Positions 2,340-5,027 of a stretch of 64,000 bases of DNA are shown here, piece by piece (positions within the stretch are counted from its first letter, which is position 1; each line of letters begins with the position of its first letter). Origin of the DNA: Marixanthomonas ophiurae (GTDB lineage Bacteria > Bacteroidota > Bacteroidia > Flavobacteriales > Flavobacteriaceae); NCBI RefSeq assembly GCF_003413745.1, contig NZ_QVID01000001.1, positions 1,302,001-1,366,000 on the forward strand, in the 5' to 3' direction. The position numbers and the translations under genes were made by a program. Below the pieces are notes generated by a model that was not told the origin of the DNA, did no database searches, and saw only the letters and a list, made by a program, of their open reading frames with translations.

Positions 2340-4166
2340 ATGTCAGCACACACAGAAGATTTAGCAGTAGATCACCACGATGATCACGGGCATCATCACG
2401 AACAGACCTTTATATCTAAATATATATTTAGTACAGATCATAAAATGATATCCCGGCAATACCTTATCACCGGTATTTTCATGGGGATAATTGGGATATT
2501 AATGTCCGTTCTTTTCAGAATGCAGATAGCATGGCCTGAAGAACCATTTACAATTTTTGAAATTTTCTTAGGGAAATGGGCAGAAGGTGGCGTAATGGAC
2601 CCAAGTGTTTATTTGGCATTGGTAACTATACATGGTACCATAATGGTATTCTTTGTATTGACAGCAGGGCTAAGTGGTACCTTTAGTAACTTATTGATTC
2701 CGTTGCAAATCGGGGCTCGTGATATGGCCTCAGGCTTTTTAAACATGGTATCATACTGGCTTTTCTTTATATCTAGTGTGATTATGGTACTCTCGTTGTT
2801 TGTTGAGGCAGGACCCGCATCAGCTGGTTGGACAGTTTATCCTCCGCTGAGTGCTTTGCCACAAGCTATACCAGGATCTGGTACTGGAATGACGTTATGG
2901 TTGGTGTCATTAGCTATATTTATTGCATCCTCTTTATTGGGATCGCTTAACTATATTGTAACAACATTAAACTTACGTACCAAAGGAATGTCCATGACAA
3001 GACTTCCGCTTACTATATGGGCGTTTTTTGTAACAGCCATTATTGGTGTGGTATCGTTTCCTGTATTATTATCAGCAGCGCTGATGTTAATTATGGATAG
3101 AAGTTTTGGTACATCATTCTTCCTTTCAGACATTTACATTGCTGGGGAAGTGCTACACAATCAAGGAGGGTCACCTGTATTATTTGAGCATTTATTTTGG
3201 TTCTTAGGACACCCAGAAGTATATATTGTTATTTTACCGGCAATGGGTATTGTTTCAGAAGTTATGGCTACCAACTCACGGAAACCAATTTTTGGATATA
3301 GAGCAATGATTGCGTCAATACTTGCAATTGCCTTTCTATCTACTATTGTTTGGGGGCACCATATGTTCGTTTCAGGGATGAATCCTTTCTTGGGGTCTGT
3401 GTTTACCTTTACAACATTGTTAATCGCAATTCCTTCAGCAGTAAAAGCATTTAACTGGATTACAACAATATGGAAAGGTAATCTGCAAATGAATCCCGCC
3501 ATGTTATTTTCTATTGCATTTGTTTCTACCTTTATTACAGGTGGGTTAACAGGGATTATCCTCGGGGATAGTGCTTTAGATATTAACGTGCACGATACGT
3601 ATTTTGTAATTGCTCACTTCCACTTGGTAATGGGTATTTCAGCTGTATATGGTTTATTGGCTGGAGTATATCATTGGTTCCCAAAAATGTTTGAAGGGCG
3701 ATTGATGAATAAAAATTTAGGATATGTCCACTTTTGGGTAACTGCAATAGGAGCATATGGAATTTTCTTCCCAATGCATTTTGTGGGTATGGCAGGTTTA
3801 CCGAGAAGATATTATACAAATACTAACTTCCCATATTTTGATGATCTGGCTGATATAAATGTGGTGATAACCATCTTTGCTATCATTACGGCAGCGATTC
3901 AAGTGGTATTTTTGTATAACTTCTTCCATTCTATTTTCTACGGAAAGATAGGACCAAAAAATCCTTGGAAATCTACTACCTTAGAATGGACGGCCGAAAT
4001 GAAACATATTCACGGAAACTGGGATGGTCCAATACCACATGTATACCGTTGGCCTTATGACTACAGTAAGTTGAATAAAGATGAAACCGGCTATGTAATA
4101 CCAGGACAGGATTTTATCCCTCAGACCGTTCCTTTAAAAGAAAACGAGGATGAATTAAATCACTAA
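2340..4166 (+). CDS. coxA: Cytochrome c oxidase subunit I
   Basis: This is the catalytic haem-copper subunit (608 aa, about 12 or more helices). Visible hallmarks are the CuB histidine and cross-linked tyrosine with the channel glutamate in WFLGHPEVY (about residue 287-295), the CuB His pair in WGHHMF (about 337-342), and haem ligands in HDTYFVIAHFHLVMG (about 417-431). GARDMA supplies the D-channel aspartate, so it is an A-type proton-pumping oxidase. The His-rich N-terminus (DHHDDHGHHHE) could bind metal, but this is inference. It is the last gene of the act-cox operon here. Subunits III and IV are about 20 kb away at 23979-25993. Confidence 0.97.
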   Translation: MSAHTEDLAVDHHDDHGHHHEQTFISKYIFSTDHKMISRQYLITGIFMGIIGILMSVLFRMQIAWPEEPFTIFEIFLGKWAEGGVMDPSVYLALVTIHGTIMVFFVLTAGLSGTFSNLLIPLQIGARDMASGFLNMVSYWLFFISSVIMVLSLFVEAGPASAGWTVYPPLSALPQAIPGSGTGMTLWLVSLAIFIASSLLGSLNYIVTTLNLRTKGMSMTRLPLTIWAFFVTAIIGVVSFPVLLSAALMLIMDRSFGTSFFLSDIYIAGEVLHNQGGSPVLFEHLFWFLGHPEVYIVILPAMGIVSEVMATNSRKPIFGYRAMIASILAIAFLSTIVWGHHMFVSGMNPFLGSVFTFTTLLIAIPSAVKAFNWITTIWKGNLQMNPAMLFSIAFVSTFITGGLTGIILGDSALDINVHDTYFVIAHFHLVMGISAVYGLLAGVYHWFPKMFEGRLMNKNLGYVHFWVTAIGAYGIFFPMHFVGMAGLPRRYYTNTNFPYFDDLADINVVITIFAIITAAIQVVFLYNFFHSIFYGKIGPKNPWKSTTLEWTAEMKHIHGNWDGPIPHVYRWPYDYSKLNKDETGYVIPGQDFIPQTVPLKENEDELNH

Positions 4167-4211
4167 ATAAATTAATTTATAATATAAATGAAATTTACGT
4201 ATTATTACGTA

Positions 4212-4242
4212 TTGACTTCACTGCTCCCTGTTCGTATATTTG
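4212..4242 (+). promoter_or_regulatory. Promoter of first candidate small RNA
   Basis: TTG at 4212-4214 and TATATTTG at 4235-4242 are separated by exactly 20 nt. This fits the Bacteroidota primary sigma consensus TTG-N19..21-TAnnTTTG. The nearest protein start on this strand is more than 800 nt away, so the promoter most simply serves the short transcript that ends at the terminator at 4284-4315. Confidence 0.7.
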
Positions 4243-4246
4243 GTTA

Positions 4247-4322
4247 ACGATTAAGGAACAAAGAGTGGGGACTTTGTGACTGTAAAAGCCGTACTATAAA
4301 AAAAGTACGGCTTTTATATTTT
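4247..4322 (+). ncRNA. Candidate small RNA 1, about 75 nt, G4-loop hairpin plus terminator
   Basis: The predicted start lies about 5 nt after the TATATTTG box. A 6-bp hairpin follows: ACAAAG (4258-4263), loop AGTGGGGA (4264-4271), CTTTGT (4272-4277). Then comes an intrinsic terminator with a perfect 12-bp stem. No open frame of meaningful length lies inside. A second unit of the same design lies at 4392-4465, and its hairpin differs in sequence but keeps pairing. Promoter, structured body and terminator are seen directly; transcription as an independent RNA is inferred. It may match a known Flavobacteria RNA family (Rfam lists one called Flavo-1), which I cannot test here. The alternative, that this is only a coxA 3-prime UTR, is weakened by the internal promoter. 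Confidence 0.55.
4284..4315. terminator. Intrinsic terminator of coxA and small RNA 1
   Basis: A perfect 12-bp inverted repeat, AAAAGCCGTACT (4284-4295) and AGTACGGCTTTT (4304-4315), has an 8-nt loop and is followed by a T-rich tract. It can terminate read-through from coxA as well as small RNA 1. The flanking A and T tracts would allow action on both strands. Confidence 0.85.
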
Positions 4323-4355
4323 TAAATTGTATGTAAAAATACCCACAATTGGGTA

Positions 4356-4387
4356 TTGTTTATAGACTAATTATTCTTCTATATTTG
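4356..4387 (+). promoter_or_regulatory. Promoter of second candidate small RNA
   Basis: TTG at 4356-4358 and TATATTTG at 4380-4387 are separated by 21 nt. The -7 box and its following G are identical to those of the first promoter at 4235-4243. No gene lies on this strand before ruvB at 5088, so the promoter most simply drives the short unit ending at 4460. Confidence 0.68.
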
Positions 4388-4391
4388 GAGA

Positions 4392-4465
4392 AGATTTAAT
4401 TAGTAAAATGGGGAGTTTACTGATTTAATAAACCGCACTTTTTGAGGAGGAGTGCGGTTTTTTTA
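4392..4465 (+). ncRNA. Candidate small RNA 2, paralogue of small RNA 1
   Basis: The architecture is the same as the unit at 4247-4322. The hairpin is AGTAAA (4402-4407), loop ATGGGGAG (4408-4415), TTTACT (4416-4421), followed by a linker and a terminator. TGGGGA and GATT before the hairpin, and TGA after it, are shared with the first unit. Three of six stem pairs differ as compensatory changes, which is evidence for selection on structure. No significant open frame is present. Function is unknown. A G4 loop could pair with C-rich target sites, which is inference. Confidence 0.55.
4430..4460. terminator. Intrinsic terminator of small RNA 2, probably bidirectional
   Basis: A perfect 10-bp stem, AAACCGCACT (4430-4439) with AGTGCGGTTT (4451-4460), has an 11-nt loop and a following T tract. 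It lies 7 nt from the end of the convergent peroxiredoxin-like gene and could stop both transcripts. Confidence 0.85.
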
Positions 4466-4466
4466 T

Positions 4467-5027
4467 TTATTTTCCGCCCCTAGCAGGATAATCTTCTTTT
4501 AATACAAAATCAAGAGACTTTAGCAAATCATCAAATCCAGGTCTAGCAAATGGCATCGTCTGTATAGAAGCACTATAAATAGTTGCGTCTTTATTAATTA
4601 AAAATAAAGCAGGTTCAGAAAATACGTCTGGTTCAGCATCTTTAATCGCATGGCTAATGAACAGTCCATATTCTCTAGCTTTTTCTTCAGTCATCCCATA
4701 CGCAAGTGGAATGGAATCAATATCCCATTTTTCAGTAGAGATAGTAGCTCTTTTCTTAGTATCCATACTTGCAGCTACTACATTTACACCTTTTTCTTTA
4801 AAGTCATTTATTTTAGTCTGTAATTCTTCTAAGTACTTTTTACATACAGGACAGTGTAGACCTCTGTAAAAAATAATCATTGTAAAATTTTCAGGTTGTT
4901 GTTTCTCAATATCCCAAGTTGTACCATTAGTTAAATCTAACTGTAGTTTGGGTGCTTTTTCTTTCGGCTTAATCATAACTTTTTTTTGTAAGGTAGCTAA
5001 TGGAATACTGTTTCTGTCCCAAGGCAT
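4467..5027 (-). CDS. Peroxiredoxin-like (AhpC/TSA, thioredoxin-fold) protein
   Basis: The 186-residue protein has a thioredoxin fold of the AhpC/TSA superfamily. The active-site region is YRGLHCPVCKKYLEEL, with cysteines at about residues 59 and 62. This CxxC pattern is that of the peroxiredoxin-like 2 group rather than classical two-Cys enzymes. It has no signal peptide, so it is probably cytoplasmic and reduces peroxide or disulfides; the substrate is unknown. An internal Met at residue 18 (MIKPKEKAPKL) is a possible alternative start. The gene is divergent from ruvB, with 60 nt between starts, and its 3-prime end meets the small RNA terminator. Confidence 0.85.
   Translation of the reverse strand: MPWDRNSIPLATLQKKVMIKPKEKAPKLQLDLTNGTTWDIEKQQPENFTMIIFYRGLHCPVCKKYLEELQTKINDFKEKGVNVVAASMDTKKRATISTEKWDIDSIPLAYGMTEEKAREYGLFISHAIKDAEPDVFSEPALFLINKDATIYSASIQTMPFARPGFDDLLKSLDFVLKEDYPARGGK

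Follow-up and report, generated by a model that had tools for sequence, protein, structure and literature searches.

Two tandem candidate small RNA genes beside coxA in Marixanthomonas ophiurae as probable members of a scattered flavobacterial family with a nearly invariant G-rich loop

What are the two short units packed between coxA and an AhpC/TSA-like (peroxiredoxin-like) gene of Marixanthomonas ophiurae, and do they have counterparts elsewhere? In the window (the whole stretch of 64,000 nucleotides that was analysed), positions 4196-4466 hold two complete small RNA units flanked by these two genes (Table 1). A first-pass annotation, made from the letters alone, had proposed them as duplicated small RNA genes, and the letters and coordinates it gave for the units proved correct on direct reading. 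Both units are built in the same order. A palindrome comes first, then TTG and, after 20 or 21 nt, TATATTTG; next is a hairpin whose G-rich loop spans 8 nt, joined by a short linker to a strong terminator. The two operator-like palindromes, which are conserved, were absent from that annotation. Promoter and terminator are present separately for each unit, and neither unit has a conserved open frame, as would be asked at the sequence level of a trans-acting small RNA. A short peptide in unit 2 was ruled out, its possible ATG being ATA in three congeners (G001-G003).

Table 1. Features of the two-unit locus and its flanks, in positions of the window
Feature	Position	Strand	Remarks
coxA	2340-4166		PF00115
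Operator-like palindrome 1, TACG-N8-CGTA	4196-4211	none	abuts TTG of promoter 1
Promoter 1: TTG 4212-4214, 20 nt, TATATTTG 4235-4242	4212-4242	+	Bacteroidetes sigma-A type
Candidate small RNA unit 1	4247-4322 (ends approximate, start assumed)	+	model R1
Hairpin 1, stem ACAAAG/CTTTGT 4258-4263/4272-4277, loop AGTGGGGA (as RNA AGUGGGGA)	4258-4277	+	
Intrinsic terminator 1	4281-4318	+	terminator scan
Operator-like palindrome 2, ATACCC-N6-GGGTAT	4339-4356	none	overlaps TTG of promoter 2
Promoter 2: TTG 4356-4358, 21 nt, TATATTTG 4380-4387	4356-4387	+	
Candidate small RNA unit 2	4392-4466 (ends approximate, start assumed)	+	models R2 and R3, copies in other genera
Hairpin 2, stem AATTAGTAAA/TTTACTGATT 4398-4407/4416-4425, loop ATGGGGAG (as RNA AUGGGGAG)	4398-4425	+	
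Intrinsic terminator 2, loop region repeats UGAGGAGG	4430-4460	+	terminator scan
AhpC/TSA-like (peroxiredoxin-like) gene	4467-5027	opposite to RNA units	PF00578

The stems of the two hairpins differ at three pairs, all of which still pair, exactly as the annotation had it; its further statement about TGGGGA holds in that the motif is common to both loops, but in loop 1 it is shifted by one base towards 3' relative to its place in loop 2. The AGTAAA/TTTACT core of hairpin 2 extends to the longer stem of Table 1, including one T-G pair. Folded as whole units, both sequences are exceptionally stable (z = -6.7 for unit 1 and -5.4 for unit 2, 0/200 shuffles each). Taken alone, hairpin 1 has an unexceptional energy (27/200 shuffles fold as well) and hairpin 2 is matched by only 1/200. 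A terminator scan of 1.1 kb found exactly two terminators, those of the two units, with 0.6 expected.

Analysis of the genus pointed to strong conservation of the whole arrangement. A DNA search of 40 genomes (our own and 39 relatives) matched the stretch in 6/6 congeners at 76-81% identity, as non-coding sequence; outside the genus the same search of the 39 relatives returned short chance-like pieces only. Conservation of the hairpins in relatives had been put forward with the original proposal as a check on it, and both units are kept in all six congeners. Alignment A2 shows almost no variation across the genus in promoter 1, in hairpin 1 with its linker or in terminator 1, and the TATATTTG of promoter 1 is unchanged in 7/7 genus members; that of promoter 2 reads TATTTTTG in five congeners and is altered further in G006. 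Operator 2 is kept in 7/7 members and operator 1 in 6/7, being altered in G005. Loop 2 has two variable positions within the genus, occupied by purines only (AUGGGGAG, AUAGGGAG and AUGAGGAG), and UGAGGAGG recurs in the loop region of terminator 2 in 7/7 members. The model of unit 1 built from the genus copies (R1) scored 93-116 bits in the three genus members searched. At two of the congener loci (L006 and L007) the RNAs remain, although the flank that was fetched showed no peroxiredoxin-like gene. By eye, a hairpin terminator follows coxA in the six congeners (L002-L007) and is absent from 4167-4195 of the window.

None of the pairs changes on both sides within the genus (0/22 and 0/21 for the two units), and the genus alone therefore shows selection, not structure. 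The annotation had read covariation from the two copies of the window; two copies prove little by themselves, and the claim finds its footing instead in an alignment of 11 sequences (A9) that reaches three other genera. Here 98.2% of the cells pair, against at most 56% when the partners are slid by 1-3 columns, and 14/21 pairs change on both sides, where shuffles yield 3.6 (0/500 as high), these pairing statistics being inflated by the fitting of A9 to model R2 and by the discovery of several copies through hairpin or model searches. A9 drew on 13 sources, of which L179 and L185 fell below its cut-off; MAFFT alignments of the distant copies (A7 and A8) misaligned the loop and were dropped. Because A9 leans towards the model, a control independent of any model was made from the background occurrences of TGRGGAG, of which 74 copies were found in 79 coxA-region loci. 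Their stems round an 8-nt loop have 0-4 pairs, and 0/74 stand on a stem of at least 5 pairs. Among the family hairpins with an 8-nt loop, 20/23 have 5 to 14 pairs and the other three, from G426, G418 and the second copy of G005, have 4, in a count that excludes G060, G093 and the G094 coxA copy, whose loops are longer, and sites with fewer than 3 pairs. Through all changes of locus, genus and operator it is the loop, U-R-R-G-G-A(-G), that remains nearly invariant, on stems that vary yet pair. The motif is repeated in the terminator loop of unit 2 of the genus, of the g88 copies (5/5) and of two g89 loci (L231 and L232); it is absent from the terminator loop of unit 1, of the kdsA-locus copies of the genus (g1), of G306 and of G060.

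Outside the genus, model R1 gave nothing above 38 bits in 299 family genomes, and the 27 non-genus R1 loci that were fetched resembled, by eye, terminators without the hairpin. In the coxA neighbourhoods of named genomes one further pair was found (1/80 loci), in the Flavobacteriaceae MAG EAC59 (L048, which shares its sequence with G222:C100 and is treated as one with it). The stem of its unit 1, GGCAACGC/GCGTTGCC, is unrelated and carries the loop GUGAGGA; its unit 2 retains the AGTAAA stem, TTAGTAAA[TTGGGGAG]TTTACTAA; and both palindromes are retained at the same positions. The operator 1 element precedes the RNA there and also at L246/L247. Model R2, for which the seven copies of unit 2 in the genus served as input, scored 42.6 bits in G222, 33.3 in G093, 32.2 in G303 and 32.1 in G306 in a search of 43 kb. 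Model R3, built from A9, gave 29 matches at E 0.002 over 388 family genomes, of which 15 carry the loop motif, 13 do not, and one (L244) was uninspected. The motif-bearing matches fall in 6/237 sampled genera (the own genus g1, and g55, g88, g89, g91 and g217), so that with a single one of the 80 named coxA loci the family is a scattered one. All five genomes of g88 have copies, each of which follows operator 2 and shows GGGGA a second time in its terminator loop, and motif-bearing copies occur in 4/11 genomes of g91 (G306 twice, G419, G422 and G426). The proposal of paralogous small RNA genes, in which pairing is kept while the stems change, is supported, and we infer that the copies descend from a common ancestor.

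A second tandem pair lies in the own genome itself (G000:C1, about 66.4-66.7 kb), where both hairpins read ATTAA[TTGGGGAG]TTAAT with a ACAGGAAAAACCC-type element upstream; R3 listed one of these two copies and the second was read from the sequence. The pair recurs in G001, G002, G006 and G005, where one loop is CTGGGGAG, and in the search at E 0.3 it was not listed for G003 (55% complete) or G004. These hairpins are weak by energy (44/200 and 21/200 shuffles fold as well). By our reading the neighbour is a DAHP-synthase-family gene resembling kdsA. Synteny examined by tblastn places coxA next to the RNA in g1, g217, g55, g91 and g89 (four genera besides the own one, a fifth having its copies at a different site), and a kdsA-like gene next to it in G000, G002, G005 and G006 and in three g91 genomes (G306, G419 and G422); in g89 only the 471-aa neighbour matches (L232), and L231, L249 and L257 matched none of the synteny queries. 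Given this synteny across genera, the coxA and kdsA-like loci both look old, and the stems differ between most genera. Upstream of kdsA-type copies (L265, L248, L249, L231, L232 and L220) there are (A)GGAAAAACCC or GGGGTAAAACCCC-like elements that may represent a third type of operator. At the coxA locus of G096 (L179) the hairpin loop looks decayed (AUAUAGGAAUAU) and the terminator loop carries UUGAGGAG, so the motif may have shifted. Terminator-like RNAs form a third tandem pair in the own genome (G000:C1, about 1262.0-1262.3 kb, L258; also L254, L255, L260 and L275); in the genus, pairs of this type lie upstream of a gene that reads as polA and carry UUUUGAGGARGA in their terminator loops only.

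The palindromes raise the question of what would switch these genes on. NarL sites consist of heptamers in a 7-2-7 arrangement, and ATACCC-N6-GGGTAT resembles a NarL/FixJ-type site. This palindrome followed at N16-32 by TAnnTTTG occurs in 47/397 family genomes (the reversed pattern in 1), mostly before protein genes, many of which have lipoprotein-like starts by eye. A motif hairpin follows operator 2 at 7/70 distinct sites (loci L120-L199), two in the genus and five outside it (L161, L163, L167, L169 and L179, the last having the motif in the terminator); shuffled sequence sets gave 0.045 such hairpins on average and at most 2 in 400 sets. A further pattern, AAACTCCYCANTTT with a promoter, matched 11 of the 397 genomes (reversed control 1), with the full unit in G000 and G222 only. 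The genome G393 encodes a response regulator with a LuxR-type domain (PF00072 and PF00196), which ends about 100 nt upstream of the operator; at this locus (L185) a kinase-like frame and the LuxR-type regulator gene stand directly upstream of the operator and of a short hairpin/terminator unit with the loop UUUGGGA. Family-wide, operator 2 with a promoter was also seen before genes with lipoprotein-like or secreted-looking products (for example L126-L155 and L164), three of them within 4 kb in G163. ATACCC-N6-GGGTAT, of which no description was found in the literature searched, opens a candidate regulon without a named regulator.

Placing these results into one model, we favour with a probability of roughly 0.55 a family of paralogous trans-acting small RNAs, each under its own regulator, whose common loop pairs with C/U-rich RNA without Hfq, CsrA or an RRM protein. 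The two units would be members of a family of independently transcribed regulatory RNAs of about 75-80 nt in Flavobacteriaceae, each with a DNA-binding regulator of its own as its switch. For unit 2 this is most likely a response regulator of the NarL/FixJ type acting at ATACCC-N6-GGGTAT, the centre of which lies about 44 bp upstream of the assumed start; for unit 1 it would be another, perhaps related, regulator acting at TACG-N8-CGTA. All copies would expose the same loop, URRGGA(G), as the seed for pairing in trans with C/U-rich single-stranded RNA (CUCCNN), probably in mRNA leaders. Different operators before a common loop imply that several signals may feed one post-transcriptional output. 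Protein searches in the own genome detected neither Hfq, for which the control was positive in 5/14, nor RRM_1 (PF00076; 0 at E<=0.001, control positive in 2/14), and pairing is predicted to proceed without such partners. A conserved paralogous family in a genome where these proteins and CsrA were not detected would offer a way into how small RNAs work there, the operators would link it to two-component signalling, and a nearly fixed loop on free stems yields clear testable predictions.

The annotation had suggested that the G-rich loop seeds pairing with C-rich sites, and where it might find such targets was examined with its complement. CTCCCCA-N0-25-ATG gave 353 matches against 221 for the reversed pattern in seven genomes, an excess which codon use may explain and in which some matches come from the RNA genes read in antisense. 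We scored 55 CTCCCCA sites in stretches of the own genome (L307, L309, L310 and L312 come from other genomes and are left out, and the own-genome match at the RNA locus itself, 66459, lay outside the fetched set). Three of them fall in a leader before a long frame, namely those of a PAS histidine kinase and of a dehydratase of polysaccharide synthesis, both flagged by script, and that of a nucleotidyltransferase, judged by eye. Their duplex energies rank 2, 21 and 55 of 55, the PAS kinase being second, and the site of rank 1 lies inside a coding frame, not at a start codon. The PAS-kinase leader would pair with one kdsA-locus copy (B2) over 14 contiguous and 7 more pairs ending at the ATG, at -30.3 kcal/mol, an energy reached by 4/3000 flank shuffles; with 55 sites and four RNAs tried, this leader is a suggestive candidate only. 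A further 38 sites in 30 loci of the seven-genome scan gave 0 candidates. Not included among the targets is a 12-nt complement of unit 1 shared by G000 and G001 (L306 and L307), which runs antisense within an open frame.

Other explanations share part of this evidence. The units might not be regulatory RNAs at all and represent conserved terminator or promoter debris, or leaders or attenuators of their neighbours. Strong terminators do dominate the model scores, and the distant R1 matches that we inspected were terminators; however, the units are each bounded by a promoter and a terminator of their own, the next gene is read from the other strand, conservation of the hairpin and its loop is separate from that of the terminator, and a second tandem pair has the same loop at another locus, and we consider this reading very improbable. 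The G-rich loops might instead be protein decoys that titrate an RNA-binding protein preferring GGA in hairpin loops, in the way that CsrB and RsmZ titrate CsrA through GGA in theirs. Such a role would suit stems that are free under a nearly fixed loop, as well as the GGA exposed in the loops of the listed copies and repeated in some terminator loops (genus unit 2, g88, L231/L232). The resemblance to CsrB/RsmZ stops at the loop: CsrA (PF02599) was not detected in the own genome (control positive in 3/14), there is no candidate protein, and each RNA offers one or two motifs rather than many. We judge a decoy unlikely, with pairing of the loop to RNA as our preferred reading.

Pairing could also be aimed at the ribosome. 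The URRGGAG loop would then mimic a Shine-Dalgarno sequence and bind the free 16S rRNA tail of ribosomes lacking bS21, tuning that sub-population. CUCCUU, taken here as the general anti-Shine-Dalgarno core, from which the 16S tail of this genome may differ, forms all six pairs with 14/14 unit-2-type loops (CUCCUC with 13 and CUCCCC with 7), and both variable loop positions hold purines, which would be compatible with U U as partner; for the two unit-1 loops the count falls to 5 and 4 of the 6, and a hairpin loop may reach the tail poorly. Part of the report on Flavobacterium johnsoniae describes just such a sub-population of bS21-less ribosomes with a free anti-Shine-Dalgarno (PMC9976891), but in the same source rpsU, the one obvious Shine-Dalgarno client, needs pairing below -13 kcal/mol, a threshold next to which six pairs, one or two of them G-U, are weak. 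On balance we find this mimicry improbable. More improbable still is its extension, in which several two-component signals converge on interchangeable RNAs with Shine-Dalgarno-like loops that read out the bS21-less ribosomes; since the anti-Shine-Dalgarno is hidden in these bacteria, such a loop would be free to serve as a signal, and specialised ribosomes would, if this were true, be tuned by small RNA.

Is the family, then, one already described? The annotation had guessed at a catalogued flavobacterial RNA, Flavo-1 in particular, a guess that did not hold: Rfam 15 at gathering score gave no family, Flavo-1 (RF01705) included, in the window or in 21 fetched loci (7 and 14), and loose thresholds over 4000-4700 gave 26 weak matches, all under gathering scores. 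Flavo-1 is like our units a non-coding RNA of Bacteroidetes, in the available part of PMC2864571, and differs in giving no match at gathering score here. Within the phylum the nearest family is FopS, which with GibS in Bacteroides forms a set of paralogous RNAs with a common seed, canonical promoters, an intrinsic terminator and about 65-70 nt, as far as the accessible text of PMC11697453 describes them; their seed is a single-stranded 5' end, whereas here it would be a hairpin loop. FopS goes with the protein RbpB (PMC11697453, in part). The GibS match reached 18 bits against a gathering score of 115. RbpB is a protein of the RRM kind, a further difference from the own genome, where RRM_1 was not detected. 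In the excerpt of PMC9723704 that we used, Rfp18 and other small RNAs of Flavobacterium psychrophilum are likewise independent structured RNAs in Flavobacteriaceae, but Rfp18 has at least 3 stem-loops, the third of which is predicted to pair; the comparison is by description, and overlap with an Rfp RNA is possible. A close parallel in design comes from Listeria, where LhrC1-5 are linked to a two-component system and, according to the portion of PMC4132741 consulted, are multicopy RNAs with one short motif (UCCC) in hairpin and terminator loops and do not require Hfq for their target. The LhrC motif is C-rich and blocks the Shine-Dalgarno region (same portion of PMC4132741), whereas the motif here is its G-rich mirror image in a host group with mRNAs mostly without Shine-Dalgarno sequences; as a sequence, the window reaches 17.8 bits against a gathering score of 110, on the other strand. 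Our literature search, which covered the Rfp RNAs of F. psychrophilum by description only, found no description of this family, and set apart from those RNAs by description it appears to be a new family of a known kind.
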